Virus record (IMG/VR): IMGVR_UViG_3300047157_000184
Span: 1 to 29,844 of that record
Source: a virus
Reading direction: 5' to 3' (one strand)
DNA: 29,844 nt
Under the pieces are notes generated by a model. It was not told where the DNA came from. It worked only from the letters and a program-made list of their open reading frames with translations, and searched no databases. Of the stretch, positions 1 to 20,876 are shown piece after piece (position 1 is the stretch's first letter; each line of letters starts with the position of its first letter). Both the position numbers and the translations under genes were made by a program.

Positions 1-202
1 ATTCTACTCCTAGTATTGGTTTTATCTTGTTCTGTCTCATCGTTTGGAAAAACTTTACGCATCCAGATATAGAGCCGTGGTCTGTTATAGCACAGCTAGT
101 CACACCTAACTTAGAACACCTATTAGCGACATCTTCAGGTTTTGACAACCCATCCAAAAGAGAGTAGTGAGTATGCAAATGCAAAGGCGTATAATGTTTC
201 AT
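1..202 (-). CDS. dnaE: DNA polymerase III alpha subunit (DnaE-type), N-terminal fragment
   Basis: This is the first 67 codons of a C-family replicative DNA polymerase, the enzyme that would copy the phage genome; the rest lies outside the window. The start MKHYTPLHLHTHYSLLDG carries the PHP-domain HxH metal motif, and AITDHGSISG about 45 residues in is the second PHP motif of DnaE/PolC proteins. The ATG directly abuts the TGA of the upstream nuclease gene (TGAATG), which fixes the start and implies translational coupling. Phage DnaE polymerases are known but less common than A- or B-family enzymes. Recognition of the PHP N-terminus is secure. Whether the full polymerase, palm and fingers are intact cannot be seen. 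Confidence 0.92.
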   Translation of the reverse strand, partial: MKHYTPLHLHTHYSLLDGLSKPEDVANRCSKLGVTSCAITDHGSISGCVKFFQTMRQNKIKPILGVE

Positions 203-1234
203 TCAATCCGTACTTCCAGGAGCTTGGTAATATCCTACATGATAACCCGGCACAGTGTACTCGTCAACCACAGAATCAATTCCATTCAATTCTATATCAT
301 GCTTTACTTGCTCACACATAGTCATAAATTCTCCTTTTTCACACAACTTACCATCACGATACTCTACCATTGGCGTTATCTTGGTATCGTTAAAAGAATT
401 TTTGCCATAGTGACATAATTTTTTACACTTCCAACTTTTGCTTAATCTAGGCTTATTACATTTCTTGATTTGTTCGAATTTCTTTCTTAGCAAATCTTCT
501 GTTTTTATAATATCCGATCTATCAAAAGTCATACTAAAAGGTCCACCATCATTAATAAAATATATAGTAACTATACAATGTTTAATCTCTGGGTATAATT
601 TTTGTGCTGCGTAAAAATAGATCATTAATTGTGGATCTTTTTCTAATTTCTCTTGAGTCTTTTCCTCACCAGTTGCCCAATTAAGTCTACGACCAGTTTT
701 CCAATCAATAATTTCTAATGTGTCATCATTAACTCTAGTGATTAAATCAATAGTACCCTTCATAGCCAATGTGCCTTTTAAGTCACCATAATCATATTTA
801 GCCCATGGCTTTTCTATAGTTATATCAAACTGCTGTTCAGGATAGAGGATATCTCTATTCCTTGGGTCAAACATACCATCGGCATACGTGATGGCTTTGT
901 GTGCCCACTTTAAACAATCTTTTTGATCTTTTTCAGACCACTCATGATGATTAAAGTTTGATGTATAATACTCATAAATCTGTATACTTAATTTAGTAAT
1001 ATCATAATCGTTTACATCTACTTCGCCTACAATATCATCTGTAAAAGTTTTTTCTCCCTTTTGTTGAGTAAATTTTACAAAAGCTAAGATTTCTAATATT
1101 TTATGAACTATCGTTCCCTTGTCTGCTTTTTTATTAGAGGGTGATCTATAACCTAAAACATAATCAAACAAATATTGCTGTTCGCACATACAATGAGTAT
1201 TATATGATGAGCTACGAAAATATGTAATTATAAT
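203..1234 (-). CDS. PD-(D/E)XK exonuclease, Cas4/RecB-like, apparently with an ATT start
   Basis: Predicted single-strand DNA exonuclease of the RecB/Cas4/AddB nuclease superfamily, probably acting in phage recombination. Visible motifs are KGTIVHKILEIL (catalytic His), GTIDLI (metal-binding Asp) and LEIIDWKTGRR (D-x-K core). Near the C-terminus, KCKKLC and two further Cys could hold an iron-sulfur cluster, as in Cas4. The first in-frame ATG (position 1189) lies inside the conserved family N-terminus: the upstream codons read ITYFRSSSYNTHC and run straight into MCEQQYLFDYVLGY. The frame opens after a stop at 1247-1249 and contains no ATG, GTG or TTG before 1189. An AAAGGA ribosome site sits 8 bases before ATT at 1232-1234, which would give 343 aa starting MIITYFRSSSYN and a 7-base overlap with the kinase gene. 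The fold is secure; the exact start is inferred. Confidence 0.85.
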   Translation of the reverse strand: MIITYFRSSSYNTHCMCEQQYLFDYVLGYRSPSNKKADKGTIVHKILEILAFVKFTQQKGEKTFTDDIVGEVDVNDYDITKLSIQIYEYYTSNFNHHEWSEKDQKDCLKWAHKAITYADGMFDPRNRDILYPEQQFDITIEKPWAKYDYGDLKGTLAMKGTIDLITRVNDDTLEIIDWKTGRRLNWATGEEKTQEKLEKDPQLMIYFYAAQKLYPEIKHCIVTIYFINDGGPFSMTFDRSDIIKTEDLLRKKFEQIKKCNKPRLSKSWKCKKLCHYGKNSFNDTKITPMVEYRDGKLCEKGEFMTMCEQVKHDIELNGIDSVVDEYTVPGYHVGYYQAPGSTD

Positions 1235-1806
1235 GTTAATATTCCTTTATGTGTGAGAAAGTTTTTAATTATATTATTTTTTTCTTCAATACCACCATCA
1301 AGGTTGGCGATCACTAAATCAAAATTGGATTGGTCGTAGTTACTCTCGTCTAACGCTGTTTCACTTGCGTGTGTGGACTCATACAGGTTTCTATTAAGTT
1401 TTATTACCATACCACCAGCATTTTTAACAGCGTCAACCTCGTTAGGAAATCTACAATCTGCTATCAGTGCTAGTTTTGGTTTTTCTTTTTCTATTAGTCT
1501 GATTGTGGCTGATGACCAAACATGGTGCTGCATCCTTCTAAAAACGTCCGTTCCAACATATTGTAGAACTTCCCTAGCCGTCATTGGTGCATCAGTGCCT
1601 GGCCAATAGCAGTCTACGGTTTCGTTTTTGTTTTGATCTGTACCATAACACTGTTCTTGTGTTAAGCCTAATATGTTTATGCACAGCTGCTTTAAAGGAT
1701 CTGCAAAGTTATATATTTTGATTTCTTGGTTTGGCAAAAGACTTTGAATAAATTCACATGAAGTAGTTTTCCCAGATTGTTTTCTACCAGCGAAAGCTAT
1801 AATCAT
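1228..1806 (-). CDS. Deoxynucleoside monophosphate kinase
   Basis: P-loop kinase of 192 aa resembling the T4 gene 1-type dNMP kinases, which phosphorylate dNMPs to dNDPs for phage DNA synthesis. The Walker A motif GRKQSGKTTS is at residues 7-16. The stretches NFADPLKQLC, TAREVLQYVGTDVFR and IADCRFPNEVDAV are typical of this family: an early DPLK region, a substrate-binding region with Arg, and a D-x-R-(F/Y)-x-x-E motif. The ATG overlaps the primase stop (ATGA), so it sits in the same operon. Function fits with the ribonucleotide reductase and dCMP deaminase farther downstream. Substrate specificity cannot be read from the sequence. Confidence 0.85.
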   Translation of the reverse strand: MIIAFAGRKQSGKTTSCEFIQSLLPNQEIKIYNFADPLKQLCINILGLTQEQCYGTDQNKNETVDCYWPGTDAPMTAREVLQYVGTDVFRRMQHHVWSSATIRLIEKEKPKLALIADCRFPNEVDAVKNAGGMVIKLNRNLYESTHASETALDESNYDQSNFDLVIANLDGGIEEKNNIIKNFLTHKGILTL

Positions 1807-2963
1807 ATTCTTTCCTTTATAAAGTTTTTTATTTCTGTGTTTATTTGATCGGACGACATCTCTGCAATATCTTTTGCTGTAATTTTTATATTATATATAT
1901 TGTATGTTCTATCACAAATTTTTGCTATATTATCTGCTGCTTTCTGTCCAGCGTCATCGTTATCCATAATTGTAAAGATAGACATAGCTCCACTAGAATC
2001 TAATAAAAGCTTTTGTTGATTACTTAAATTAGTACCAAATATTGCTACGCTATTGTGTATATCGTTTTCTTCTAGTTTCCATACATTTCCCGGACTCTCT
2101 ACCAAAATTACTGACATCTTTTTTTTGATATGTTCGTTAGCAAACCAGAAATTATATAGATACTCTTGTGTTTTAAATCCACTATTATGTTTCCATTTAG
2201 AATACTTCCATAAGTTTTCAGCAGAAGGGCAGCTATCTGATGGATTATGGAAACCTCCGCACTTATCGCATTTTTCATATATACTTCTACCAGTACATCC
2301 CACCATAGTCTCATAATGCATGTCGTAGATAGGAACAACTACTCTATTATACATTTCTCTTTGTGAGTTTGTGCATAATCCTACATCATATTTATCCATA
2401 GTGTCTTTACTATAACCTCTGTTAATATAGTATTGAGCAGGAATTTCTAAGCTTTTCCTCACCATCCCTCTAGTTATAGTAGGTTTGTCTACCGTTTTCT
2501 TCTTGTGGATAGACCTCATAGCAATATTAAACTTGTGTTTGTTTTGCTGTGTTTTATTGATCTTTATATTATTTATATTAGTGTTGGTAAATTCTTCACA
2601 AAATTTTATAGTTTCTTGAAAGGTACAGGTCTGATCTCCCTCTTTGCACCAATCGTATCTTTTGCTAGATAGCAGCCCTCTAATAAAACCTATAATAGAA
2701 CCTTTGAAACACTCTTCACAATTGTGGGTTCTACACTTCCAATTGCCTCTATAGCTCTCTCCTTCAGGATATATATTAATAGCTGATGGGTTGTCACCTC
2801 CATGAATAGGGCAACACATACTATAAAATCTACCGTTGTCTTTGTATTCTATTTCGAAATAATCAAACAGATCTTCTATCCTATCACAAAGTTTGTCGCA
2901 TAGGATTTTTAATTTCTGCTGTTGACCTTTATTCGAATGGTATGGCTTCTTCACTGTTTTCAT
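1803..2963 (-). CDS. DNA primase, DnaG-like (CHC2 zinc finger plus TOPRIM)
   Basis: DNA primase that would lay RNA primers for the phage replication fork. The N-terminal CHC2-type zinc finger is visible as CCPIHGGDNPSA (about residues 50-61) followed by WKCRTHNCEE (about 75-84). The C-terminal TOPRIM domain shows ILVESPGNVWKL, then FGTNLSNQQ and the acidic IMDNDDAGQKAA, which carry the metal-binding Glu and Asp residues. A second small CxxC pair (KCDKCGGFHNPSDSC) in the middle may bind zinc. At 386 aa it is shorter than cellular DnaG and has no obvious helicase-binding C-terminal domain. I start at ATG 2963 rather than the preceding TTG because AGGAG lies just upstream. It overlaps the helicase gene by 35 bases. 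Confidence 0.9.
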   Translation of the reverse strand: MKTVKKPYHSNKGQQQKLKILCDKLCDRIEDLFDYFEIEYKDNGRFYSMCCPIHGGDNPSAINIYPEGESYRGNWKCRTHNCEECFKGSIIGFIRGLLSSKRYDWCKEGDQTCTFQETIKFCEEFTNTNINNIKINKTQQNKHKFNIAMRSIHKKKTVDKPTITRGMVRKSLEIPAQYYINRGYSKDTMDKYDVGLCTNSQREMYNRVVVPIYDMHYETMVGCTGRSIYEKCDKCGGFHNPSDSCPSAENLWKYSKWKHNSGFKTQEYLYNFWFANEHIKKKMSVILVESPGNVWKLEENDIHNSVAIFGTNLSNQQKLLLDSSGAMSIFTIMDNDDAGQKAADNIAKICDRTYNIYNIKITAKDIAEMSSDQINTEIKNFIKERI

Positions 2964-4377
2964 CAAACTCCTCAGCTGAATTTGGTTTTTGCATTAATTC
3001 CAATCTGGTCTTACCTTCGCTAATTTTAGCGCACCAACCCTTCATATTACAATTGATATAATCATTATCGTCTAAACCACCACCATGTCTACTAACCAAA
3101 GGTAATAATTTTCTATTGCCATTTTCTGGACCGTCTTCAGCTATTTCTTCATCTGTTTTTCTTTTAAATATTGTAAAGTTACTACATAGCCAAATAATTC
3201 TGTCCGATCCACTAGCCGTGTCTGTGCTTTCTTTTGTAATGCCGTCCCTGTTTAGCTGCACAAAAGCCACAATAGGAACTTTGTATCTCGTTGCAAAATT
3301 GTGAAGTTGTGTCATCATGAAACCAAGCACTTGATATTCTTTCATGTCTTGGCTCATACCAGCACTATCCATTAGCTTTAAGTAATCATAAAATATTACG
3401 CAGTCTTTGGCGGTACCGTCTTCATTAAGGCCGACCTCTTTGATTAACCATCTTCTTATAAGCGACATCTGGTCTTCAAAGGGTTGTCCAGCAATAGACT
3501 TATGATAAATACCCATCTCTTTTAATTCTTGAACAGCTTTATCTATTTTATTTTTCTTGCTAGGAGACTCAGCGAACTTACCAGTTTCTATGCTAGTAAT
3601 ATCTAGTTCTGTCATCATTGCCAATATTCTATTAATATGGTCCTCTTTCATCATCTCGGTGTCTAAATTTAAAATAGGCACCTTGTGTTTAGAAGCTATA
3701 TTAAAACCCATATTATCTGACAGTAATGTTTTGCCCGTTTTAGGTCTAGCAGCAATAACATTGACGGTTCCTTTACGCAAGCCACCACCTATAGCTTGGT
3801 CATATATTGGAAACCCTGTAGGTATGCCTATTTGATCAATAGGATTATCAATCAATGACTGTATATATTCTTCTACATCTTGACCAACCGTTGTTGGATG
3901 ATTCTCAGTATCATTTAATACAGAAGAAAAATTAAATATCACATCCTCTGCAATACCCACAATACTTCCTACAGGCTCAGTACCTTTAACTTCAGATACT
4001 TTATCTTTGGCTTTGTCTAATTCTTTTTCTAGCATTCTAGCTATTTCTAGCTTTTTAACTTTTGCTGCGAATTTGCGAACATTTTCTAACTCTACAGGGA
4101 AATTAGTTATGGCCTGTAAATGTTGTACTTCTTCTTTTTTTGTTAGGACAGCAGACAAGTGTAGTTCTTCTGCTGCGGAAAATATTGTAGCTATATCTAA
4201 AACAGTATTAGGATTCTTTTCAAAAATGTGTTTAAAGCATTTATAAAGAAATATATTACTATCTATAGTAAAAGAATTTTCTTGTAATAAATCTGCCACA
4301 TCATAGTAAGCATCTTCACCGTAATTGTATATACCTGACAGTACTGCACGTTCTGCCGACGCATCTGATAGTTTCAT
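2929..4377 (-). CDS. Replicative DNA helicase, DnaB family
   Basis: Hexameric replicative helicase of 482 aa. An N-terminal DnaB-type helical domain (about 1-110, starting SDASAERAVLSGIYNY) is followed by a linker and a RecA-like ATPase core. In the core are Walker A ARPKTGKTLL (about 210-219), the NLDTEM segment after strand 2 (H1a-like), Walker B VIFYDYLKLM (about 327-336) and AFVQLNRDG (about 371-379), matching the motif H3 Gln of DnaB/gp4-type helicases. It lies directly upstream of the primase in the same transcript, so the two are probably made together and may act as a primosome. No fused primase domain is present. Assignment is firm. Confidence 0.92.
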   Translation of the reverse strand: MKLSDASAERAVLSGIYNYGEDAYYDVADLLQENSFTIDSNIFLYKCFKHIFEKNPNTVLDIATIFSAAEELHLSAVLTKKEEVQHLQAITNFPVELENVRKFAAKVKKLEIARMLEKELDKAKDKVSEVKGTEPVGSIVGIAEDVIFNFSSVLNDTENHPTTVGQDVEEYIQSLIDNPIDQIGIPTGFPIYDQAIGGGLRKGTVNVIAARPKTGKTLLSDNMGFNIASKHKVPILNLDTEMMKEDHINRILAMMTELDITSIETGKFAESPSKKNKIDKAVQELKEMGIYHKSIAGQPFEDQMSLIRRWLIKEVGLNEDGTAKDCVIFYDYLKLMDSAGMSQDMKEYQVLGFMMTQLHNFATRYKVPIVAFVQLNRDGITKESTDTASGSDRIIWLCSNFTIFKRKTDEEIAEDGPENGNRKLLPLVSRHGGGLDDNDYINCNMKGWCAKISEGKTRLELMQKPNSAEEFDENSEEAIPFE

Positions 4378-4378
4378 T

Positions 4379-4756
4379 TCACCCAGCCATTGCGGAACAT
4401 TTGTTACATTTATATCGATCTATAGAGTCTATCAATCCTGGATTCACGGACTCTTCTTTACCACACACTCTACATCTTACTTTCACAGCATTAAAACTTC
4501 TCGTTCTAGGAACAGGAGGTTGTCTAGCAACCTTTTTGTCAAATTCCACATCTTCCTTATGCATAGAAAACTCTGCCATTTGTTCAAACTTATTAACTCT
4601 TTTACTACCTCTATCTAAATTTTTAGATTTAATAACATCATTAAATTGGTTTGATGGCTGTACTGGTTCTGTAGCTTCATTTTCTTCTTTTGGCAGCATG
4701 GCCGCAAGCATGTTAATCATTTGCTTTATTTGTTTGGGACTTAGGTTGTCATCCAT
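4379..4756 (-). CDS. Zinc-ribbon protein of unknown function
   Basis: Small 125-aa protein not assigned to a family. The N-terminal half is charged and low in order; an N-terminal helix (LSPKQIKQMINMLAAML) is followed by a basic, proline-rich linker. The C-terminus is a clear four-cysteine zinc ribbon: CRVCGKEESVNPG, then a spacer, then YKCNKCSAMAG. Such ribbons are found in DNA-binding and transcription or replication accessory proteins. The gene sits between the helicase and the possible UvsY-like gene, with its stop one base before the helicase ATG and its start overlapping the upstream gene. A role in replication or recombination is inferred from position only. Confidence 0.75.
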   Translation of the reverse strand: MDDNLSPKQIKQMINMLAAMLPKEENEATEPVQPSNQFNDVIKSKNLDRGSKRVNKFEQMAEFSMHKEDVEFDKKVARQPPVPRTRSFNAVKVRCRVCGKEESVNPGLIDSIDRYKCNKCSAMAG

Positions 4757-5240
4757 TTTTAATCATCCCCTTTGCTCTTTGTATAGAAATTAGAATATCA
4801 GATAAGTTTTTAAGTGTGCTTGATAAATACGTTAATCTATCACATCTTTGTTTAGCATACTTTTTGATTTGATTTAATTTATGAGATCTTTCGTTATGCT
4901 TAATAGCTTGTAATGATTTTTCTACATATCCATAACCTTTGTAATTATTGAGTTCATCAGCAATGGTTTCTTTAATGGTTTCATCTGCCCAATTATATCT
5001 AGCCATTTCCCTATTTAAACTTCTTTGTATATGAAAACCAAATTGACCAATCCTATATGCAATCTCTCCACATTCTGTAACAGTAAATTTTTCTAAGACA
5101 TCTCTATTCATAGTGAGATATTCCTGTAGTTCCTGTTCTGGCAGGCTGTCTCCGGCATACGCTGGTATACCTATGCCTTTTTCATATTCATCTAATATAT
5201 TATCCCAATGTGATACTTCTTCTTTAGTTGTTCTGGTCAT
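4749..5240 (-). CDS. Hypothetical helical protein, possible UvsY-like recombination mediator
   Basis: A 163-aa, probably all-helical protein with no recognised catalytic motif. The C-terminal third is rich in Lys/Arg (HNERSHKLNQIKKYAKQRCD) and ends in a long hydrophobic-repeat helix (LTYLSSTLKNLSDILISIQR). This layout (basic helix, then an oligomerising C-terminal helix near 140-160 aa total) resembles T4 UvsY, which loads the UvsX recombinase onto single-stranded DNA. The gene lies two genes downstream of the RecA/UvsX-like gene. The resemblance is by shape and context only; there is no stretch of sequence identity I would trust. It overlaps both neighbours, so it belongs to the replication operon. 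Confidence 0.7.
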   Translation of the reverse strand: MTRTTKEEVSHWDNILDEYEKGIGIPAYAGDSLPEQELQEYLTMNRDVLEKFTVTECGEIAYRIGQFGFHIQRSLNREMARYNWADETIKETIADELNNYKGYGYVEKSLQAIKHNERSHKLNQIKKYAKQRCDRLTYLSSTLKNLSDILISIQRAKGMIKNG

Positions 5241-5634
5241 CTATAATATCTTCCCATTCTGATGTTTTATTATAAGGTAGTTCAACAAAGCCAATCTCAT
5301 TCATATCGCACCAATGTTTCTTTTCTCTGTCTCTTTTTTTATGTTTTAAAAAATTAAGTTTGTTCTGATGGAAAAACGGAACATATTTATAGTGTTGTTC
5401 ACCATGAACCTCTATACAAATTTTAGCAAGCGGGAGGTAAAAGTCAAGGTACAAAATTTCAGTTCTTCTTAAAGGTATCGGAACTTCCTCTAAAATCTGG
5501 TAAGTAGGAAAAACATTTCTTATAACCTCTCTAGCTTGTAGATGTAGTTCAGATTTATTCTGTCTACTACCTTTGGCTATATGTCCTGTTAATTGCCATT
5601 TTTGTACTTTACCATCTAAATCAATAATATCCAT
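5224..5634 (-). CDS. DUF559/Vsr-like PD-(D/E)XK endonuclease
   Basis: Predicted small nuclease of 136 aa related to the DUF559/very-short-patch-repair fold. The core reads LHLQAREVIRNVFP (leading Glu/helix), LYLDFYLP (catalytic Asp) and ICIEVHGEQHYKY (E-x-H form of the E-x-K active site). A basic segment follows (KHKKRDREKKHWC), then VELPYN. The open frame extends farther upstream to 5727, but that part lies inside recA in another frame. ATG at 5632-5634, seven bases downstream of the recA stop codon at 5639-5641, is the sensible start (MDIIDLDGKVQKW). It may be a stand-alone homing-type nuclease or a repair nuclease; its position next to recA favours neither. Confidence 0.75.
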   Translation of the reverse strand: MDIIDLDGKVQKWQLTGHIAKGSRQNKSELHLQAREVIRNVFPTYQILEEVPIPLRRTEILYLDFYLPLAKICIEVHGEQHYKYVPFFHQNKLNFLKHKKRDREKKHWCDMNEIGFVELPYNKTSEWEDIIDDQNN

Positions 5635-5638
5635 ACCA

Positions 5639-6676
5639 TTACATACCCATTGTTTCTTTAACTTGAGTCCAAAGAGTATTATATACTTCTGGATTAGAAG
5701 CAATATAATTTCTAGCTTTTTCTTCACCCTGGAATTTAGGAGTATCTTTTACACAAGTGATCGTATACCAAGCACCGGCTTGGTCTACCAAACCAATATC
5801 TTTAGCTAAATTAAATACCTCCATCGCTCTGTCTATACCTTCTCCATATCGTAAGAAGCTTGTAATCTTACCACCCGGAGGACCCAAAGCAGAACAATTT
5901 ACTATCCAGTGTATTTTTTGTCCGATTTGAGTATCTTCTTTGCCTACTCTCCATGGCTCAAAATAGGTAGCTCTTAACTTAACATCAGTTTGATAAGCAA
6001 TAGCTTGTCCAGATTTTTCCTTAAACTCTACATTGCCATGTCCGGGATTGCCCATAAGATGCGTTATTCCGATTACAACATTTTTATTAACAGGAATTAC
6101 ATTCGCTACTTTTCTGCAAAACTTAGCAAGTAACTTTGCTCCGTCCGCTCTTTGCATTTTGCCCATATCGGCAGTAATTTCAGCTTCTGTACATAGTGCT
6201 GAGTAAGAATCGATAATCAGTACAGATCCTGGTTCCTCATTAATAATTCTTTCTCCAATAGACAAATATTCTTCTGCATGTAATATTTTACCTTGCTGTG
6301 ATCCTATCACATGAAATTTATCTAAGTTTAGATTAGGTATACCTTCTAAGTCCCTCTTCTTCAATCTACCCTCTATATTTAGGTAATACACATCTCTACC
6401 ATCTTTAAAAGTACTGTGTGCGTATTCTGGTTTTTGTGCTGTAGCCGCAAAGTCTAAAGAAGTTGTTGTCTTGCCACACTTAGGATGTCCGGTAAAAATC
6501 ATAAAGCTACCTTCTGGGACACCGCCGTTTAAGACCAAATCCAAACAAGGAGAGACAGGTATGGTAACTAAGTTTTGGTCTACTACTGAATTAGCAGATA
6601 GCATAATACCATCACCGAATTGTTTCTTTACTCCATCTTGAATTTTGTTTTTAACTTTAGTCTTTGTCTTGCTCAT
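5639..6676 (-). CDS. RecA/UvsX-like recombinase
   Basis: Strand-exchange recombinase of 345 aa. The ATPase core shows Walker A GHPKCGKTTT (about 63-72), a strand YYLNIEGRLKKRDLEG with the catalytic Glu region, Walker B SVLIIDSYSAL (about 151-161) and the L2-type region GITHLMGNPGHGN before a conserved SGQAIAYQTDVKLRAT. The N-terminus has only a short basic segment (KTKTKVKNKIQDG) instead of the RecA N-terminal domain, and the C-terminus contains PKFQGEEKARNYIASNPEVY. It would act in recombination-dependent replication and repair of the phage genome. Neighbours are a nuclease downstream and small conserved phage genes upstream. The start overlaps the upstream gene by 20 bases. Confidence 0.9.
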   Translation of the reverse strand: MSKTKTKVKNKIQDGVKKQFGDGIMLSANSVVDQNLVTIPVSPCLDLVLNGGVPEGSFMIFTGHPKCGKTTTSLDFAATAQKPEYAHSTFKDGRDVYYLNIEGRLKKRDLEGIPNLNLDKFHVIGSQQGKILHAEEYLSIGERIINEEPGSVLIIDSYSALCTEAEITADMGKMQRADGAKLLAKFCRKVANVIPVNKNVVIGITHLMGNPGHGNVEFKEKSGQAIAYQTDVKLRATYFEPWRVGKEDTQIGQKIHWIVNCSALGPPGGKITSFLRYGEGIDRAMEVFNLAKDIGLVDQAGAWYTITCVKDTPKFQGEEKARNYIASNPEVYNTLWTQVKETMGM

Positions 6677-7082
6677 CGTCTAAATCCTTTAGTTTGGATA
6701 AAATATTTTTAGTAGTTTGTTGTTTCTTATATGTGGACTTATCTCTATCTAAATCTATTGTAACATCTTTGTTCTGTTTAGACAAGATCTTTTCATGCTT
6801 TTTTATGACAGCAGGCAGAAATTTAGACCTTAAAGAGTAAGTCCTATAGCACTGCTTGTCTTTTATAGCTGCTATTATTGCTTTGGCGCTATTTTTCTTT
6901 AAAAGTCTATGTGCTGTAAAGATCTGATTCTTGTAAAATGAAGACCACTCCTTGTTATTCCAAAATCTATAATGTAAATCTTTTTGTTCAATTCTCGCTT
7001 TGTTCTCGCAGATTAATTCCGTAATATATTGAGCAGCACTTACTTCCTTGCCATTCGAATATTTAGAAATATATTTATCCAC
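6657..7082 (-). CDS. Hypothetical basic protein
   Basis: About 141 aa, not recognised. It is Lys-rich and predicted helical, with the segment SAAQYITELICENKARIE followed by aromatic-rich HYRFWNNKEWSSFYK and a basic C-terminal region ending in an acidic tail (KDLDDEQDKD). It may bind nucleic acid, judged only from charge. Two starts are possible: TTG at 7106 (28 bases inside the next gene upstream) or GTG at 7082. I prefer GTG because the resulting 8-base overlap matches the other gene junctions here; neither has a strong ribosome site. The gene lies immediately upstream of recA and overlaps it. Confidence 0.65.
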   Translation of the reverse strand: MDKYISKYSNGKEVSAAQYITELICENKARIEQKDLHYRFWNNKEWSSFYKNQIFTAHRLLKKNSAKAIIAAIKDKQCYRTYSLRSKFLPAVIKKHEKILSKQNKDVTIDLDRDKSTYKKQQTTKNILSKLKDLDDEQDKD

Positions 7083-7389
7083 GAGGTCTATATACAGCGT
7101 TTTCAAATTTAGAGTTGACGGGTTTATTTTTTTGTTCTGCTAATTGAGATGCAGCTTCTGTCATTATAGTAACATTTTTTGTTCTCTTGACAGCAGTTTC
7201 TTGCACAAAAGAATCCGTTTTACTTGATACCGTTTTGATATTGGCTTTATTAGAATTTTCTGTTTCAAATATAGTCTGTAAGGTTTCTACAGTAAGACTT
7301 ACTTCTTTAGCTATTTGTTTTTCTTCCATTCCAATAACTTCTTTTAAATATCTGGCTGCATATTCTTTTACCTTAGATACTTTTGCCAT
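7075..7389 (-). CDS. Hypothetical protein with an N-terminal helix-turn-helix-like segment
   Basis: A 104-aa protein of unknown function. The N-terminal 50 residues (KVKEYAARYLKEVIGMEEKQ, then IAKEVSLTVETLQTI) have the spacing of a helix-turn-helix: two helices with 'qIAkevsLt.eTLq' resembling recognition of a repressor-like or sigma-like fold. The remainder is Thr/Ser/Lys-rich and probably disordered. The start at ATG 7389 overlaps the upstream stop (TAATG). An in-frame extension to 7422 exists but would lie within the neighbouring gene. DNA binding is a guess from pattern alone. Confidence 0.65.
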   Translation of the reverse strand: MAKVSKVKEYAARYLKEVIGMEEKQIAKEVSLTVETLQTIFETENSNKANIKTVSSKTDSFVQETAVKRTKNVTIMTEAASQLAEQKNKPVNSKFENAVYRPRG

Positions 7390-7763
7390 TATTCCATCTC
7401 TCTTTCTGCGTTTCTTAACCACGCTATATTTTTAGTCTTTAAAAAGTTGATATATAATTCAAACACTCTGGGAGAAACCCCCTTAAACTCCCATGCCTTC
7501 TTGCCTATTTTAGACAAAAATTTGTTGGACTGCCCTTCTGAAAACATACCGATAGGATTATAAATTTTACCATGTGCTCCAAGCTTAATAAAATATTTAG
7601 TCTGAGTATTTAAACTGGCACTTTTGGCAAACACATTTGGATCAGTAGCTTCTTTTAGTCTTGGGTAATTATTATCATCAAGATAGTCATGATTACCAAA
7701 GATAGTAAAATATTCATACATCTTGCTGTCTGGTTCGCCGTCTTTAATTTTATAGGTTTCCAT
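7389..7763 (-). CDS. Hypothetical phage protein
   Basis: A 124-aa protein that I do not recognise. It begins METYKIKDGEPDSKMYEYFT and contains GNHDYLDDNNYPRL, then a basic, aromatic region (KIYNPIGMFSEGQSNKFLSK) ending FLKTKNIAWLRNAEREME. No signal peptide, membrane segment or classical active site is visible. GNHD resembles a metallophosphoesterase motif, but the other motifs of that family are missing, so I do not assign it. A TTG at 7778 is in frame, yet ATG 7763 avoids the overlap with the upstream gene and is preferred. The gene is coupled to the downstream gene by TAATG. Confidence 0.65.
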   Translation of the reverse strand: METYKIKDGEPDSKMYEYFTIFGNHDYLDDNNYPRLKEATDPNVFAKSASLNTQTKYFIKLGAHGKIYNPIGMFSEGQSNKFLSKIGKKAWEFKGVSPRVFELYINFLKTKNIAWLRNAEREME

Positions 7764-7765
7764 AT

Positions 7766-7981
7766 TTATTCTGGCCAAATGGTTTTTGGCCCCCTTTCCA
7801 TTCTAGACATTCCTTGAGGTAATACAGTATCAGGATCTTCTTTGCCTTTATAGTCATAGTGTTTTCTTTGTAGCTCAGCTTTATAATCATCACTAAATCT
7901 TTCACCGTTACGCTTTGCTAAATCTCCTAAGGTCTTAAGTTCAGAGTCACTTTTCTTTACAGAACTACTGAGGGTAAGCAT
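7766..7981 (-). CDS. Hypothetical small protein
   Basis: A 71-aa hydrophilic protein without recognised domains. It is rich in charged residues (LAKRNGERFSDDYKAELQRK) and ends PQGMSRMERGPKTIWPE. It overlaps the end of the PhoH-like gene by 17 bases and stops three bases before the next ATG, so it is positioned like a true member of the operon rather than a chance frame. Nothing in the sequence indicates its function. Confidence 0.6.
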   Translation of the reverse strand: MLTLSSSVKKSDSELKTLGDLAKRNGERFSDDYKAELQRKHYDYKGKEDPDTVLPQGMSRMERGPKTIWPE

Positions 7982-8555
7982 ATCTTCTTGATAGTTTCTT
8001 TAAATCTGATTGGTCTAGATCACCTGTAAGGACCATTTTGCTGTTCATGCCAATTCTTGTTAGCAACATTTTAAGTTGGTCATAAGAGGCGTTCTGACAC
8101 TCATCTGCTATAATAAAAGCATTATGGAAACTGCGACCTCTCATTAATGCTAAAGGCACAATTTCTATTTTTCTTTTATGTTTTAACATACCTATGTGAG
8201 TAGAAGTTAGAAAATGACTCAGTTCGTCAAACAACGGCAAAAGATAAGGATGTAGTTTTTCTTCTGCTGTTCCCGGTAAAAAACCAAGTCTCTCTCCTGC
8301 TTCTACTACAGGTCTTGTAATAACAATCTTTTCAACTTTCATATCTAATAGATATTCTAAAGCCATGCCTACAGCAATATGTGTCTTACCAGTACCCGCT
8401 GCACCTTGACAAAATGTAATAGTGTTTTCGGCTACATTACGGATATAGTCTTTTTGATTAATCGTCTTAGGCTTCAATCTATTTCTAAAACCAACAATGA
8501 TCTCATCGGGTTTTTCAATCCGATTTGGACCAGCATTTTTCTTTTTCTTTCGCAA
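7965..8555 (-). CDS. phoH: PhoH-like P-loop ATPase
   Basis: A 196-aa PhoH-family ATPase, a gene very common in marine phages though its role is unsettled (RNA-related ATPase or helicase-like activity has been proposed for the family). Motifs are Walker A GAAGTGKTHIA (about 51-61), VITRPVVEAGERLGFLPG (79-96), Walker B AFIIADECQNAS (146-157) and the sensor MVLTGDLDQSDL (174-185). The C-terminus stops soon after the sensor (KKLSRRYAYPQ), so it lacks the final helices seen in longer PhoH proteins. The start is TTG at 8555, supported by GAGG seven bases upstream. It follows the ribonucleotide reductase stop by 22 bases and is probably cotranscribed with it. Confidence 0.88.
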   Translation of the reverse strand: MRKKKKNAGPNRIEKPDEIIVGFRNRLKPKTINQKDYIRNVAENTITFCQGAAGTGKTHIAVGMALEYLLDMKVEKIVITRPVVEAGERLGFLPGTAEEKLHPYLLPLFDELSHFLTSTHIGMLKHKRKIEIVPLALMRGRSFHNAFIIADECQNASYDQLKMLLTRIGMNSKMVLTGDLDQSDLKKLSRRYAYPQ

Positions 8556-8577
8556 AATAATACCTCACGGTAAAGGG

Positions 8578-10780
8578 TTAAATTAGACAAGCACCTCCTG
8601 CACAACTAATTTCCTCAATCCCGGTCGTATTATCCTCCGTTTCTAGCAACTGGGTGTAATCAACCTTTTTGTAACTATCAAACAGGTCTTTGTACCTTTT
8701 CCAGTTATATACATCTTTCATGCAATATGTAAGACGCTTTTCATCACCGTCAAAATAATTTGCAGCGAATCTGTGCATCTTAGTTGCAAACAATTTTTTA
8801 TCGTCAGAATCATCTTCTTTTTCTTGTTTTAATGTAATATAGTCACATGCTGCCCATAGATTTAAATTAAAGGCGTTGAGACCTAACTCAATAAGCCCTG
8901 AACACCATAATGCAGCGTCACCATATTCTTTAACAATTTCTCTAGGAGTGTATACCGTGGTGAATGGTGCTTGAGGATAATCCTTATCACCACTCTGCGG
9001 TATCAAACTAATCCCAGCAAAGAACTTTCTATTATTATAAATAAACTTTGTAACATCTTCCCATTCATCAGGTTGTACAGTAACAGTGTTGCTGACATTG
9101 TGACTAAGGAAGTCTTGTGTACACAGTGATCTGTTTTTCCCAGAGTGTACCCAGTTCTTTTGTGCGTCTTTGACTACCGAGAGCATTTCGACTGCTGGTA
9201 ACTGATTTTTTAGTTTAGAACCGTCTGGTACTTCAATGGGAAACTTGATCACTTCATCTGTATCATTGGCAGACCATGATGACTTCTCACAAGCCTGCGG
9301 GTTGTAACTCTTGAAATGTTGAAACGGTGCTTCCAGAGTATTAGCCTGTACATGCCTAATATATCTTTTAGCATGATGAGGATGAATACCTGAACTTGTG
9401 CCTAGCATAGCACTAGATGTTCCTTCTGGTTTCAGACAGGTTACTCTTGCTGCTTGATTAATCTTAATCTTTTTAGCAAGTGACTTTGTTTGTATCTACT
9501 GCAATCTTTGCACCTTTCTTTAGTACTTTTTCTGTAAGTACTAGGTCATGCTTCTCCATGATGCCTGTAAGAGACACTCCTAGCAAGGCCTCTCTTTCAA
9601 AGATAGCATTGGTTGTTTTCCTAAGGTACTCTAGATTGGTAAACCCTGCTTGTAGTGTACCTATGATAGCCGCAGCACGACATCTTTCATAAAAATCTTC
9701 TTCATCAGCAACAGAGGAACAATTAATAGTAGAAAGATTACAGCCTTGCCATCCAGACTTACCAGTTTTTTCATCTACGGGCCACATACCTACTTCTACG
9801 CATGGGTTGAACGTCATTTCTGTAGAATCACTCCAGATAAATCCGGGTTCACCAAACTCTTTGACTGAATCCATCAGTGTTTGGAATTGTTCGTATGTAG
9901 TATCATCTTTAAGCAGCAATGCAGAGTTGTTGCTTCTGGCTCGTTGTGGATTGTCTATATACCAGTTGCCGGTTTTTGCTTTTGCCATCTCTTCATCATC
10001 TGCACTAAATAGGGCTAACGACGCACTTCTGCGAACACCACCAGATAGTACAGCATCGCTTGAGTGCATAATAATATCATAAGCATCAATCGGTCTGAGT
10101 TTCTTTTGTCTTATTTTCAACTGTCTTCTCCAATAACTCTCTAATTTTTTCTAAACCATTTTGTAGTGGCTCGAAACCGGGAGCCTTACCTACGCCAGAA
10201 GAAATACAGCACCTTTTCACGAATGTTGCTGTAATCAAAGACAATGTACTGCATCTTTATATTGTTTGAATTTTTCATCTGTAGGTTTAGTAAAGTATGA
10301 ACTAAGCAAAACACCTAAAGCATCAGCCCAGCCTTCAATGCTGTCTTCTATAATATACTTTACACCTTTATCTTTATCTTTTTTATTTTGTGTGATCGAA
10401 GGTAACTTGGCAACGTGATGTTTTTGTACAGAGAAGCCTGTGCCACTACCACATAACAGTAACCAAAAACACTCTTGAAAAAATCTAGGACTGTCACAAT
10501 AAGAACTTGTGCAGTTATAAATCTTAGCGTGTCTCTTTAGAATAGGATCTCCACCGAACTGCAATGCTCTTTGACTGCCTAGTACTTTTTTTTGTGCATC
10601 ATAGAGTAAGCCCAGTTTATATCGTCTGACTAAGCCTTCTATCTCCATATTGAGTAATGCATCATGTTTTTGTACACGCTCAACCGCTTCTTTCCAAGTT
10701 TCTCTTCTGTTTTCTGATTCTACCCAACGTGCGTACTTGCTAACAAATGTATAGTTCTGTAATTCGTTTAACGCCGACAT
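8578..10780 (-). CDS. nrdJ: Adenosylcobalamin-dependent (class II) ribonucleotide reductase, frameshifted as sequenced
   Basis: Monomeric B12-dependent ribonucleoside-triphosphate reductase, about 734 codons if the frame is restored. It would convert ribonucleotides to deoxyribonucleotides for phage DNA. Motifs in order: NCTSSYCDSPRFF (first active Cys), GSGTGFSVQKHHV, SDAVLSGGVRRSA, FNPCVEV (Asn/Cys/Glu active site), GWQGCNLSTIN (partner Cys), VTCLKPEGTSSAML, GIHPHHAKRYIRH, and the C-terminal redox pair SCAGGACLI. The reading frame breaks near 10243-10252, 10205-10218, 10100-10120 and 9484, yet conserved protein sequence continues in another frame each time (YIVFDYSNIREK, SSGVGKAPGFEPLQ, KKLRPIDAYDI, TKSLAKKIKINQAARVTC). 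At 9484 a single extra G explains the break. No substitution decay is evident, so indel artefact is more likely than a true pseudogene. The start has a strong AGGAGA site. Confidence 0.88.
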
Positions 10781-10802
10781 TGTTCTCCTGAAAAATTCTA
10801 GA

Positions 10803-10831
10803 TAAATAAATTGTAAAGTGCTAAGTGTTAA
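10803..10831 (-). promoter_or_regulatory. Weak candidate promoter before the ribonucleotide reductase
   Basis: The 108-base gap between the deaminase stop and the reductase ATG is the largest in the window. On the minus strand it contains TTAACA (10826-10831), then 17 bases, then TATTTA (10803-10808). The -35 matches sigma70 at five of six positions, but the -10 matches at only three. The gap is AT-rich, so a chance match is possible. No terminator-like hairpin with a U tract is seen in it. Confidence 0.2.
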
Positions 10832-10888
10832 TAATTCTTCATGATATGATTATATACACCGTGACAACCAAGATAAATCGGCATTTCT

Positions 10889-11309
10889 TTAAAAAATTTT
10901 CATTCCAGAATTTTTTACAAAAAAATCAAAACGATTTTTTGCCTCTTCGTCAAATAAATGTGTACCATGATTTTTTGCCATAATTACGGTTTCTACGCCT
11001 TCTTGCCAAAGGGCCATAATACAGTCGTTACAACATTGTCCGGTAACATAAGCAATTCCTTTGTCCGGTCTAAACACAGTTAGACAAGAGCATTTCTTTC
11101 AGCATGAATCATCCAATGATACTTTTCTGGACGGGTTGTTAGGAAGCAGAGAATCATCCATACCTCTAGGAAAACCGTTGTATCCTACTCCTAAAATTCT
11201 ATGATCAGTTGATCTGTAATTACACAGCCGTGTTGAGTATGTATATCATGACTACGCAGAGCAACTGCTTTGCTATTCCTAAAAAATAATCGTCCCACTC
11301 TGGTCTCAT
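10889..11309 (-). CDS. dCMP deaminase, frameshifted as sequenced
   Basis: Zinc-dependent deoxycytidylate deaminase, which supplies dUMP for dTTP synthesis. Pieced together across frames, the protein starts MRPEWDDYFLGIA and continues VALRSHDIHTQHGCVITD, HRILGVGYNGFPRGMDDSLL, RPEKYHWMIHAERNAL (the HAE zinc and catalytic motif), and RPDKGIAYVTGQCCNDCIMA (the CxxC zinc ligands), ending NSGMKIF; about 140 aa, the normal length. Frame breaks lie near 11269-11271 (one A too few), 11206-11211 (one base too few), 11133-11135 (one C too many) and 11083-11088 (one base too few). Both gains and losses occur, at or near short runs. The ATG is preceded by GGAG and follows the FkbM gene by one base. Confidence 0.85.
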
Positions 11310-11310
11310 T

Positions 11311-11961
11311 TTATCTCCACACTAAATTATTATGTATTTTTTGAGTGTACCTATAACCTAAATTTTCTAGTTCGTTACAATCAAAATCGTTGTCTTCAAT
11401 TATAATAATTGGTTTCCAGTTCTTGACTACGTCGATTGCTCCATTGATGGCATTTAGTTCGTATCCTTCTAGATCTAAATGTAAAACTGATACAGGTGTA
11501 GAGTGACATATTACATCATCTATTTTTACCTGACAAACCTTTTCTGTATCTGCACTTGCATCATCAACAACTCTGCTAAGTCCACCAATGTATTTGTCTT
11601 TGTCTTTAATTTTTAGATTTACCATTTTAGTACAACCACCCAACGCATTGTTTTTTAAGATAACATTTTTACAATCATTAAACAAACAGGTTTTTCTTGC
11701 ACAAGCATAACTTTCTGTATTAGGCTCAAAAGCAAATACTGTGTTTTTACAATGCTTAGATAGTGCTGGTAAAAAATCGCCAAAGTAAGTACCTGCATGG
11801 ATAATACTGCCATATCCACAATTGTTAATTATATATTTGATAGTATCAGGTTCCCATACTTCTCCCTCAAGAACGGTTTGCGCTGCAATTCTCCACAAAG
11901 AATTTTTAGGTATAGCATATCTTCCGTATATATTATACGCTTCGACAATTTCGTTATTCAT
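11311..11961 (-). CDS. FkbM-family SAM-dependent methyltransferase
   Basis: A 216-aa class I methyltransferase of the FkbM type, a family that methylates hydroxyl groups on sugars and natural products. The SAM-binding motif I is degenerate but placed correctly (SIIHAGTYFGDFLPALS), followed by the motif II acidic strand VFAFEPNTESYACARK, NVILKNNALGG, and the family's VLHLDLEGYELNAINGA ('D-x-E-G-x-E'), then PIIIIEDND. It is the last gene of the glycan island in the direction of transcription and overlaps the sulfotransferase-like gene by 8 bases, so its likely substrate is a sugar residue of the island's product. Soluble, no signal peptide. Confidence 0.82.
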   Translation of the reverse strand: MNNEIVEAYNIYGRYAIPKNSLWRIAAQTVLEGEVWEPDTIKYIINNCGYGSIIHAGTYFGDFLPALSKHCKNTVFAFEPNTESYACARKTCLFNDCKNVILKNNALGGCTKMVNLKIKDKDKYIGGLSRVVDDASADTEKVCQVKIDDVICHSTPVSVLHLDLEGYELNAINGAIDVVKNWKPIIIIEDNDFDCNELENLGYRYTQKIHNNLVWR

Positions 11962-12910
11962 AATTTAAAAATATTGGTATGTCAGGTAGGTCTTTTAAGA
12001 ATTCTTCAGGATTGGTGAAATGATCTTCTAACGGTTGATCTTTAGACTGTTTTACTGTTGGGTTAAATTTTTCTCTGTTTATCTTTACATTAATATTATT
12101 TTTGTCGTAAATATATTGTAAGTAGGACACCCTGTCGTCCTTGCTGTGTAGATCTTCAAAATTCACAACACACTTAGCCCCATCAAATTTTTCGTATACC
12201 TCATCAAACATATATCGGTGATTGCCGTCTAAATGATTAAATGTGCTGATGTATTCTTCTTTATCCCACAATATTTTAAAGTCTTGAGATTCTTTTAGTC
12301 TGTTCTGGTTCACACCCTTAGAGTCAATATAGTATATGTCATTACTCCAAGCTTTTTTATCGCTAATGTATATTGATAAAGCATTTTTCCTATAGGGAAC
12401 TATGATAGTATCACAAATATTTAAGACTTCTTCTATATTTATATTAGTTTTTTGTTCTTTTCTATATCCGTGTTGAGTGGGTATAAATGTAGTGTTTTGT
12501 GGAAAAAGTTTATGTGCAGTATTTTTGTTTATCTCGTTATTAAAAAATTCAGTAGCAGCAATATATAGGTCGGTAGTATTAATTTTTAAAAATCTGTTCA
12601 TTTCTACATTTTTGTCAGCCAAAATACTTTGTTCGTCAAACAAGTATCTTAAGTTTCTTCGTAAGAAAGTTGTCGCTTCAACCATCCAATCTTTGAATTT
12701 AAAAACCGAAGGACTTTCTGCTTCTAACATACACTTTATAATTAGCATGTATACAGACACATTCCAAGGAATATTGTTAAAAAACTCACCTAAGCAATGA
12801 TATGATTGGTCAGATCTGATAGAGTTCAAAATGTAATTAGACCCCACTCTTCCAGAGCCAGCAAATATACAAATATTGTTACAGTTTGTAGAAGTGTTCG
12901 ATGATTTCAT
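11954..12910 (-). CDS. Sulfotransferase-like protein
   Basis: A 318-aa protein with the hallmarks of a PAPS-dependent sulfotransferase, which would place sulfate on a sugar or lipid. The 5'-phosphosulfate-binding loop is ICIFAGSGRVGSNYILNSIR near the N-terminus (about residues 13-32). The 3'-phosphate-binding segment is probably TIIVPYRKNALSIYISDKKA in the middle, comparable to the usual 'R-x-P-x-x-x-x-x-S' motif, here with Arg-Lys-Asn and a following Ser. The C-terminal part has VNFEDLHSKDDRVSYLQYIY, a position where these enzymes recognise a Glu-Asp-Leu. It overlaps the glycosyltransferase gene upstream; AGGG seven bases before the ATG supports the start. The substrate is unknown, and overall similarity is moderate. 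Confidence 0.65.
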   Translation of the reverse strand: MKSSNTSTNCNNICIFAGSGRVGSNYILNSIRSDQSYHCLGEFFNNIPWNVSVYMLIIKCMLEAESPSVFKFKDWMVEATTFLRRNLRYLFDEQSILADKNVEMNRFLKINTTDLYIAATEFFNNEINKNTAHKLFPQNTTFIPTQHGYRKEQKTNINIEEVLNICDTIIVPYRKNALSIYISDKKAWSNDIYYIDSKGVNQNRLKESQDFKILWDKEEYISTFNHLDGNHRYMFDEVYEKFDGAKCVVNFEDLHSKDDRVSYLQYIYDKNNINVKINREKFNPTVKQSKDQPLEDHFTNPEEFLKDLPDIPIFLNYE

Positions 12911-13718
12911 TTAATTTCCCTATGTTGTTTAATTTATATAAGCCGTTATTGTCAATTTCAATATCTGTAACATTAAAATCATCAATTAGTAGCTCGTTTC
13001 TAGAATTGTATCCTCTTGTATTATATTTTCCATGATACAAATGTTCTACAACACCTTTGCAGTATGCGATTTTTTGACCATCACAAGAAATATTCTTATA
13101 GTATTCTAAGAAATCCAAAATCAAACAATTTGGCATTTGTAATAATTTAGTGTTAAATATATCGCCTAACCAAGAATAAAGCTGTAACACATCATTACTT
13201 CCTAATATATGCTTATCATAAAAGCCATTCGGTATTATTGATGTATGACAACCCCAAGCTATGCCTGGGGCAGTACTGATTGGTATTGCTGAGCCATAAT
13301 GAATCTTATCGTAAACTAGTTTTGCATAGCTAAAACAATTAAGATTATGATTGTATTCATTACTAAGTTCAACAATTCTTTCAAAAGGTTGGGCAAACGG
13401 GGTTTCGTCTAATAGTTTGTCTAAGTCATAAAGCCAGTTTTCGTTATGAAAAACAATATCAGTATCTAACCACACAATTTTGTCTGTTGTATCTGGCAAT
13501 GACTCTAAAGCTATATTAAAACACCGTTCTTTCTGCCACAATAGATTCTCTGGTTTAGCTACTATTTGTATTGCGTCATCTATAAAAAAGTCAGACTTGT
13601 GTTTTGCAATCTCTACTGTCACAAGATCATGATTAAATTGTTTTCTAAATTTAATATAATTTTGTTTTCTTACACTATCATTGTAATAATTAAAGTATGA
13701 ACATATTGCTTTAATCAT
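12879..13718 (-). CDS. Glycosyltransferase-like protein, paralogue 1 of 3
   Basis: A 279-aa GT-A-type protein that matches the two genes at 27879-29530 along its length. Shared features are an N-terminal CSYFNYYNDSVRKQNYIKFR strand-helix, FFIDDAIQI, LLWQKERCFNIALESLP, the DxD metal site IVWLDTDIVFHN (about residues 80-90), ILGSNDVLQLYSWLGDIF with an acidic catalytic-type Asp, and EHLYHG near the C-terminus. The intact DxD and HxxHG-like ending suggest an active nucleotide-sugar transferase. The start is ATG 13718 (the codon before it is TTG), overlapping the upstream stop by 8 bases. The donor sugar is unknown. The family match is inferred from fold motifs, not from a named relative. Confidence 0.75.
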   Translation of the reverse strand: MIKAICSYFNYYNDSVRKQNYIKFRKQFNHDLVTVEIAKHKSDFFIDDAIQIVAKPENLLWQKERCFNIALESLPDTTDKIVWLDTDIVFHNENWLYDLDKLLDETPFAQPFERIVELSNEYNHNLNCFSYAKLVYDKIHYGSAIPISTAPGIAWGCHTSIIPNGFYDKHILGSNDVLQLYSWLGDIFNTKLLQMPNCLILDFLEYYKNISCDGQKIAYCKGVVEHLYHGKYNTRGYNSRNELLIDDFNVTDIEIDNNGLYKLNNIGKLNEIIEHFYKL

Positions 13719-14139: not shown

Positions 14140-15317
14140 AATGTATTAATCCTACAAGGCACATCAAAAATTTTACTAATCCAATACACAAAACCAGACC
14201 CCCAGTTGTAAACACTGTAAGACGTATTGTTTTTGCTTTGGGAAAGAATCTTTACATCTAACGCTGTATACATTAGCTTTTCGTCTTCTATGTCTGTATT
14301 TTTAAAATCTGTTAGTATGAGTGTTGATGGTGCATAAGATGTGTGGGTGCTTTTATCATGCACAATATGTATATTGGGGTTCTTGTTAATTTTAGTTATG
14401 TATGATTTTAGATCATTGCAGTCTGACATAATAATAAGATTTTTACACCCTTGTTCTTTCAGATATTTAGTTGCTATACTATAATAGTGATCGTAGTCGT
14501 GTTCGTGTTTGTCATAGTTTTTATTTTGTTTAATAAAATCTGGCAGCTTAGATATTTCTTGATCTAAATTAGTCACACTTTGTCTATCTCCAAGACGGAA
14601 ATGTAACACATGATAATCTGGTATATTAAGATTGTTATATAATTGTTCTATACTTTTATGGAAATATATATGATCTTGAAAATATTCTTTACATTTATGG
14701 CTTAATTGGTAATCTTGTAAAAAACATTTGGCGTTATTTTCGTAGTAAGGAACAATCAAAACATCGTGATAAAAAGAAGATATAGATGGTTGTGTACAAG
14801 TGCTTATAATTTGATTCAAAGTTTTTTTCATGTGCAATGACCAATTTGCGTTTGCTCTACTCTCTTCAGCCTTGCTTTCTAAATCTATGGCGTATTTAGG
14901 CGATTTAGGACATGTTGTTAAAATAAACCTACCGATAGGGTGCTGTTTAAAATCAAGGCTTACAGGAACACCCAGCGTTTCATACAAATGAATAGAGCCT
15001 CTTAAAAAATCACCTATACCACCACTAAATTTTTTTGTATAACAATTGGTGACAGACTTAAGATATTTCGTATCTATAGGGTATATAACAGATAGTTTAA
15101 AATCAGAAAGATCATAATCGTTTTTATATAATTGTAATATAAAATTATACGGTATATCTAACTTGGCTTTTTGACAAACCACTAGGATAGATTTAACAAC
15201 CCATTCATTTAGTTCTGTCTTTTTATTACAATAATCATACTCTAAAAAATATTTAGCAAAAGGGTATGGATCGCCTGTTTCTAAAAAATCATTTAGTATT
15301 TTCTGATGATTTGGCAT
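14136..15317 (-). CDS. GT11-like (fucosyltransferase-type) glycosyltransferase
   Basis: A 393-aa GT-B-like protein. The clearest signal is HVLHFRLGDRQSV in the middle, corresponding to the 'H-x-R-x-G-D' motif that binds GDP-fucose in alpha-1,2- and alpha-1,6-fucosyltransferases (GT11/GT23). NLIIMSDCNDLKSYI resembles the following 'SDD' strand. Near the end, KILSQSKNNTSYSVYNWGSG corresponds to the 'S-N-S-x-F-S-x-W' segment. The first half has no recognised domain apart from KFSGGIGDFLRGSIHLYETL, similar to the N-terminal GGxGx motif of such enzymes. A GDP-sugar donor would fit the adjacent GDP-mannose 3,5-epimerase. I start at ATG 15317 rather than TTG 15329. Confidence 0.62.
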   Translation of the reverse strand: MPNHQKILNDFLETGDPYPFAKYFLEYDYCNKKTELNEWVVKSILVVCQKAKLDIPYNFILQLYKNDYDLSDFKLSVIYPIDTKYLKSVTNCYTKKFSGGIGDFLRGSIHLYETLGVPVSLDFKQHPIGRFILTTCPKSPKYAIDLESKAEESRANANWSLHMKKTLNQIISTCTQPSISSFYHDVLIVPYYENNAKCFLQDYQLSHKCKEYFQDHIYFHKSIEQLYNNLNIPDYHVLHFRLGDRQSVTNLDQEISKLPDFIKQNKNYDKHEHDYDHYYSIATKYLKEQGCKNLIIMSDCNDLKSYITKINKNPNIHIVHDKSTHTSYAPSTLILTDFKNTDIEDEKLMYTALDVKILSQSKNNTSYSVYNWGSGFVYWISKIFDVPCRINTL

Positions 15318-18473: not shown

Positions 18474-18474
18474 T

Positions 18475-19113: not shown

Positions 19114-19128
19114 ATCATTTTCCTAAGT

Positions 19129-20178: not shown

Positions 20179-20183
20179 AATGA

Positions 20184-20821: not shown

Positions 20822-20847
20822 AAAGTTATCCCTTCGGTATTTATATA

Positions 20848-20876
20848 ATAATAACACATTCTTATAACTTTGTCAA
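20848..20876 (-). promoter_or_regulatory. Sigma70-type promoter inside the glycan island
   Basis: On the minus strand TTGACA (20871-20876) is followed by exactly 17 bases and then TATTAT (20848-20853). The -35 box is a perfect consensus match and the -10 box matches at five of six positions, with ideal spacing. Start of transcription would be near 20841, some 20 bases before the cupin ATG, leaving a short leader that carries the AAGGG ribosome site. TATAAATA, the T4 late-promoter octamer, overlaps just downstream of the -10 (20838-20845). The promoter would let the cupin-to-FkbM genes be transcribed apart from the SDR/NeuA/NeuB genes upstream, by host RNA polymerase. Confidence 0.75.

Follow-up and report, generated by a model that had tools for sequence, protein, structure and literature searches.

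A predicted phage nuclease family with probable, recurrent ATT, ATA or ATC start codons and strong Shine-Dalgarno sequences

The nuclease gene and its neighbours

The window, that is, the whole stretch of DNA analysed, is a 29.8-kb virus record (29,844 nt, IMGVR_UViG_3300047157_000184). Its replication genes lie on the minus strand and include those for a DnaB-type helicase, a primase, a deoxynucleoside monophosphate (dNMP) kinase and a nuclease, together with the start of a polymerase-like gene. The nuclease coding sequence (203..1234, minus strand) has 343 codons from an inferred ATT start (1232..1234), followed by the stop codon TGA at 205–203. Upstream lies the dNMP kinase gene (1228..1806, minus strand; Pfam DNMK 54.7 bits, PHROG 139), with its TAA stop at 1230–1228 inside the sequence ATTATAA, where it overlaps the nuclease start; this overlap was not mentioned in an earlier sequence-only reading of the same DNA. 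Downstream, a TGA-ATG junction leads into an open-ended reading frame that is cut by the window end (2..202, minus strand) and appears to be the start of a PHP-domain DNA polymerase-like gene, from a motif recognised by eye about 30 nt past the nuclease stop.

Two other regions of the minus strand were noted. A ribonucleotide reductase gene (PHROG 367; 8578–10780) is divided into three ORFs in the window, against one ORF of about 734 codons in relatives, and probably reflects either decay or a sequence error. At 15289–21646 there are nucleotide-sugar epimerase, glycosyltransferase and FabG-like genes, perhaps for surface-sugar modification.

The nuclease was matched by Pfam PF12705 (62.8 bits; cut-off 22) and by PHROG 69, exonuclease. 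Its best PDB match in Foldseek was 9iac (ACE1, Cas4-family; E 1.2e-6), followed by AddAB and AdnAB, with query-normalised TM-scores of just 0.28–0.42 among the first ten matches listed. Residues H44, D163, D177 and K179 were invariant in 24/24 aligned homologues, and by motif mapping we take them to be the invariant His, Asp and (D/E)xK of PD-(D/E)XK nucleases. Four cysteines (C17, C270, C274 and C307) were also invariant in 24/24 homologues. The Cas4/AddB subgroup has four cysteines for an iron-sulfur cluster, and the spacing of those seen here differs from the Cas4 pattern. By profile, fold and catalytic residues, the product is a predicted PD-(D/E)XK nuclease of the RecB/Cas4-like kind, alike in all three respects to ACE1, AddAB, Cas4 SSO0001 and phage RecB-like exonucleases. 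A tblastn search with the window protein against a phage collection, from which near records may be left out, gave no relative at E ≤ 1e-5, and the homologue from locus L100 gave five weak matches in that collection at E ≤ 10 (best 3e-3); with these two queries no near relative was found among cultured phages.

The nuclease frame is open on the minus strand from a TAA at 1249–1247 down to the TGA at 205–203. From its upstream limit the order is TAA, AGG AAT ATT AAC, ATT (1234–1232), IITYFRSSSYNTHC and then the first in-frame ATG (1187..1189; codon 16). The sequence-only reading had placed the start at the ATT rather than at this ATG, and had pointed to an AAAGGA eight bases before the ATT. We confirmed this Shine-Dalgarno (SD) sequence on the minus strand (1243..1248), overlapping the upstream TAA (1247..1249). 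The frame indeed has no ATG, GTG or TTG between that TAA and ATG 1189, but the number of open codons, given earlier as 17, is 19, or 15 when counted from the ATT. The peptide ITYFRSSSYNTH is the sequence that would mark translation upstream of ATG 1189.

Start codons and N-terminal conservation among homologues

Homologues were collected in four scans of viral contigs and in a scan of bacterial genomes. The first viral scan contributed 39 loci, and each of the other three its 80 best matches, out of 481, 533 and 561 (2 of the last 80 already in the set); the bacterial scan gave one locus (L121, from a Flavobacteriales metagenome bin), a duplicate of L109. Loci identical over positions −60 to +150 were counted once, and L072, with its 5′ end cut, was dropped. 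The 161 loci, including the window, represent the top-scoring members of a larger family; the best-80 lists sample it with bias, and loci that are distinct need not be independent. The start position was set by the conserved N-terminal motif or taken from the point where the tblastn alignment starts. For L283 the match began at residue 5 and the start position was moved by four codons.

Among the matches listed, the codon at the homologous start position was ATT in 92 of the 161 distinct loci, ATG in 40, ATA in 21, ATC in 5 and GTG in 3. Loci with ATT, ATA or ATC (118/161) are here called AUN loci; the remaining 43 had ATG or GTG, and any other codon was absent (0/161). Because the same class recurs at the same position in 118 loci and is replaced by ATG or GTG in all others, its presence at the nuclease start is, on this comparison, not a matter of chance. 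The sequence-only reading had asked for a check of whether the equivalent codon is ATG in homologues; it is in some relatives, but most of those sampled had ATT or ATA.

This distribution also bears on whether the ATT could stem from an assembly or sequencing error, or from gene decay. The interrupted reductase indicates that the record may contain errors or decayed genes, but the same codon class recurs across different metagenome records, in 118 distinct loci, and the reading frame of the nuclease is both intact and conserved. The probability of such an origin is negligible.

An upstream in-frame ATG, GTG or TTG was absent in 107/118 AUN loci. The other 11 (L159, L163, L165, L170, L171, L192, L193, L196, L198, L209 and L218) have an in-frame ATG or GTG 13 codons upstream, because a conserved Asp-Gln-Cys in the kinase frame forces RTG at that point. 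This codon was considered as a start and rejected: L205, with similar upstream sequence, has stops after codon −13, and a start there is therefore not needed in that locus. The ATG or GTG that the kinase imposes on the nuclease frame in these 11 loci could mislead start prediction.

The strength of selection was then compared on the two sides of the start. Across the 118 AUN loci, pN/pS was 0.09 for codons 2–3, 0.24 for codons 4–15 and 0.18 for codons 16–45, and it rose upstream of the start to 1.20 (codons −4 to −1) and 1.23 (codons −13 to −5). The corresponding values for the 43 ATG/GTG loci were 0.02, 0.25 and 0.19, with 0.97 and 1.14 upstream. When codons 4–15 of the first 67 AUN loci were read in either of the other frames, the ratio was about 1.9; in these loci Ser and Arg codons swapped codon boxes with the residue unchanged. 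As judged from these ratios, constraint at the protein level begins at the ATT in AUN loci, as it does at the ATG in their relatives.

If translation instead began at ATG 1189, codons 2–15 would be untranslated and their purifying selection would be unexpected. It is true that codon 16 is ATG in 109/118 AUN loci, and AlphaFold2 was unsure of residues 1–16. However, the codon encodes Leu or Phe in the other 9/118, its equivalent had no SD in 93/93 loci tested, and the Pfam match begins ahead of the Met (at residue 13 of P0001, in which this Met is residue 20). We therefore find a start at codon 16 scarcely credible. The AlphaFold2 model, built from 24 sequences, had a mean pLDDT of 78; because residues 1–16 fell below 50, it speaks neither for nor against their being structurally required, and conservation speaks for it. 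Both the ATT start and a conserved segment ahead of ATG 1189, as first proposed from the window, are strongly supported by the homologues, and the spacing of the SD also fits the ATT.

Shine-Dalgarno strength, gene overlap and start codon class

An SD was defined as strong and well spaced when it had a dG of −4 or lower and an aligned spacing of 3–7 nt. By this definition it was present in 118/118 AUN loci and in 8/43 ATG/GTG loci. The background, taken from ATG genes in the window together with those in eight related records, was 257/725; the figure is approximate, since starts were taken as the first ATG and the records are partly close kin. The AUN loci lie far over this background in a test that ignores kinship, and the ATG/GTG loci lie under it (p 0.03, kinship likewise ignored). 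In 78/101 AUN loci the best pairing with a 10-nt anti-SD had an aligned spacing of 4 nt, and in 98/101 it fell within 3–5 nt. Three marks of an AUN-start gene were found together: homologues with ATG or GTG at the codon (43/161), no canonical codon upstream (107/118) and a strong SD in every AUN locus.

To take relatedness into account, start class was mapped onto a nuclease tree of 157 of the 161 loci, four short ones being dropped. The tree requires a minimum of 22 changes of class, 15 or more of them on supported branches, and shows 36 codon changes overall. Fifteen independent pairs could be drawn; on average the strong SD accompanied AUN in 12.8, the opposite held in 0 and there was no difference in 2.2 (median p 0.00024). 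In a prior set of 132 loci, for which the SD was defined less strictly, there were 14 pairs: 10.3 in the same direction, 0 opposite and 3.7 without difference. On a tree of the upstream kinase (125 loci), supported branches yielded 6 pairs, of which 4.4 agreed in direction, 0 were opposed and 1.6 showed no difference (median p 0.125); the nuclease tree of the same 125 loci yielded 9, with 7.5 in agreement, 0 opposed and 1.5 without difference (p 0.008). With 6 pairs and a p of 0.125, the kinase tree alone does not establish the association.

The number of switches may be smaller than counted, since the upstream gene may carry SD and start codon along with it as a cassette. Compared with its ATT neighbour L002, the window has 91% DNA identity upstream of the start and 87% downstream; compared with its ATG neighbour L003, identity is 77% upstream and 85% downstream. 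This pattern suggests that at least some switches brought in a different upstream gene, SD and start codon as a single cassette.

RNA structure at the start did not distinguish the two groups. Folds of 70 nt were no stronger than mononucleotide shuffles (median z +0.61 for AUN and +0.56 for ATG/GTG loci), and their strength did not differ between the groups (p 0.73).

A dNMP kinase homologue was found upstream of the nuclease in 101/101 AUN loci examined. Relative to the nuclease start, the upstream stop lay at +4 or +7 in 76/79 ATT loci, at +1 in 17/17 ATA loci and at +4 in 5/5 ATC loci, so that the two genes overlap in 98/101. The exceptions are L100, L120 and L151, all ATT, where the kinase ends at −11 and a TGA closes the nuclease frame at codon −2; overlap is therefore not essential. 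An ATGA overlap with the upstream stop was seen in 24/32 ATG loci examined. Reassignment of TGA was considered and rejected: TGA is the stop in 16/38 window genes and in 24–43% of genes in the eight related records, and with TGA in normal use as a stop its reassignment does not explain the avoidance of ATGA.

The relative frame of the overlap, the same in most loci, would also allow the nuclease to be made only as a fusion, by a −1 slip from the kinase frame and with no separate start. In L100, L120 and L151 this is impossible, because with the kinase stop at −11 and the nuclease-frame TGA at codon −2 there is no stretch in which both frames are open. Moreover, a strong SD at near-constant spacing would not be expected ahead of a fusion. 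Production by frameshifting alone is very unlikely. The overlap itself suggests that translation of the nuclease may be coupled to that of the kinase.

Proposed restrained initiation and its relation to known AUN starts

There is direct support for the start position, for selection on codons 2–15, for the strength and spacing of the SD and for the association of SD and start class across the nuclease tree. On these grounds we consider it highly probable that the nuclease has a near-cognate AUN start, in which a weak codon is offset by a strong SD to give restrained output, and which has been exchanged repeatedly with AUG or GUG and a mostly weak SD. With their first two bases, AUU, AUA and AUC pair with the initiator anticodon. 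The window nuclease would be initiated with fMet at the AUU (1234–1232), and its relatives at AUA or AUC in the same position. The third-base mismatch would make initiation poor, a strong and correctly spaced SD would keep the weak start usable, and ribosomes arriving from the overlapping kinase gene may help it in most loci. Nuclease synthesis would thereby be restrained. In other lineages AUG or GUG would be combined with an SD that is weak in most cases, and the repeated replacement of each arrangement by the other may mean that both give similar output and that restrained output is itself selected.

Alternatively, a strong SD and coupling might make the start codon unimportant, so that AUG decayed without consequence. 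Three different AUN codons do occur, and they interchange with AUG across the 36 codon changes of the nuclease tree. However, neutral tolerance would also be expected to yield TTG, CTG and ACG (0/161). In the 17/17 ATA loci examined, a change from ATA to ATG would merely turn the upstream TAA into TGA, yet ATA persists. Nor does neutrality predict that a strong SD should be rarer in ATG/GTG loci than in the background. A limited screen for other AUN-start genes took in 241 ORFs, antisense ones among them, in which synonymous change was sufficient; the 45 with the lowest ratios were read and their strand was judged by eye. Six rows were the nuclease, and the others resembled antisense ORFs or the interrupted reductase, or had only 6–7 upstream codons, as in a 615-codon ORF (L149) and a 289-codon ORF (three records); no other clear case was found in this screen, which counts against neutral tolerance. 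We regard neutral decay as unlikely. TTG or GTG would be a milder means of lowering output; since TTG was found in 0/161 and GTG in 3/161 loci, a deep reduction, or sensitivity to initiation factor IF3, may be what is kept under restrained initiation.

Expression of Escherichia coli pcnB, a bacterial poly(A) polymerase gene, is reported to be limited at translation by an AUU start (Binns and Masters 2002); the likeness is the AUU-limited expression and the difference the kind of gene. Phage T4 gene 26 has an internal AUU start that yields a shorter product, and so resembles the present case in AUU initiation in a phage but differs in not being the main-product start of a whole family.

The gene for IF3 itself, infC, starts with AUU in E. 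coli, AUC in Streptomyces and AUA in Staphylococcus aureus (PMC5472188, PMC13009471), and its start is often misannotated in Streptomyces (PMC5472188). It shares with the nuclease an AUN start mismatched at the third base only, and an extended SD is predicted for it in S. aureus (PMC13009471). The difference is that IF3 limits its own synthesis, whereas the present product is a phage DNA nuclease. The sequence-only reading had proposed self-limiting expression by analogy with infC, as suited to a nuclease that may be toxic: restrained output does fit a strong SD with a weak codon, but autoregulation of the infC type cannot be carried over because it requires the product to be IF3.

The S. aureus genes ccpN (AUA) and cvfC1 (AUU) are similar in their conserved starts, extended SD and lowered reporter output (PMC13009471). 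There, output from conserved AUU/AUA starts with an extended SD is reported to be about 10% of that from AUG in poor medium, reaching as much as 30% for ccpN when the medium is rich (PMC13009471). These are chromosomal bacterial genes, whereas here AUU, AUA, AUC and AUG interchange in one family within a phage replication module. In Streptomyces sigR (GUC) and Yersinia pestis rcsD-Hpt (AUU) too, the start is non-canonical and follows a ribosome-binding site, an extensive one in the former and a predicted one in the latter, and substitution of a canonical codon raised output or function (PMC5472188, PMC10191623). Both are single bacterial genes, and the passages cited describe no recurrent exchange with AUG and a weak SD. 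By analogy with infC, sigR, ccpN and cvfC1, the AUN-start nucleases may have low output and be sensitive to IF3.

Katoh and Suga report that with IF3 only Watson–Crick pairs are tolerated at the first two bases, and that the third is more tolerant with weaker pairs still excluded (PMC10158994). Non-canonical starts and coupled re-initiation at an AUG lacking an SD are both described as inhibited by excess IF3 (PMC2268962). These reports, together with the AUN codon in 118/161 loci the lack of a strong well-spaced SD in 35/43 ATG/GTG loci and, tallied separately, the ATGA overlap in 24/32 ATG loci, raise the idea that the conserved property is sensitivity to host IF3 and not the start codon itself. 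We offer this only tentatively and think it improbable. If true, the phage nuclease would be tied to the host ratio of IF3 to 30S subunits, sensing the state of translation during infection, and many of the switches would be swaps between two IF3-sensitive arrangements. IF3 itself was matched in 0/26 related phage records, which may be fragments.

AUU and AUA starts are known, mostly from single genes; here they form part of a class found in 118/161 sampled members of one phage family. The open-access literature searched yielded no recognised report of a phage gene that conserves an AUU/AUA start, nor the T4 gene 26 case, nor a phage family in which such starts are kept interchangeably with AUG and a weaker SD. 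Where AUN and AUG/GUG have replaced each other independently, SD strength in most cases shifts too, and these switches amount to a natural mutagenesis experiment on the trade-off between start codon and SD. A gene finder restricted to ATG, GTG and TTG would truncate or misplace the start in most of these nucleases, and a search for families that mix ATG and ATN at an aligned start could expose further genes of this kind.

An initiator tRNA supplied by the phage was considered and rejected: no tRNA genes were found in the window, and no tRNA with a CAT anticodon was present in 46 stretches of eight related records. In two related phage records, tmRNA genes were seen (L123:11331–11670 and L136:6737–7093), each with a tRNA-Leu 6–7 kb away. 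Groups of tRNA genes occur in L144 (10 at 4340–13031) and L135 (7 at 2377–5976), and a tRNA-Ile with anticodon TAT is present in both L144 and L136.
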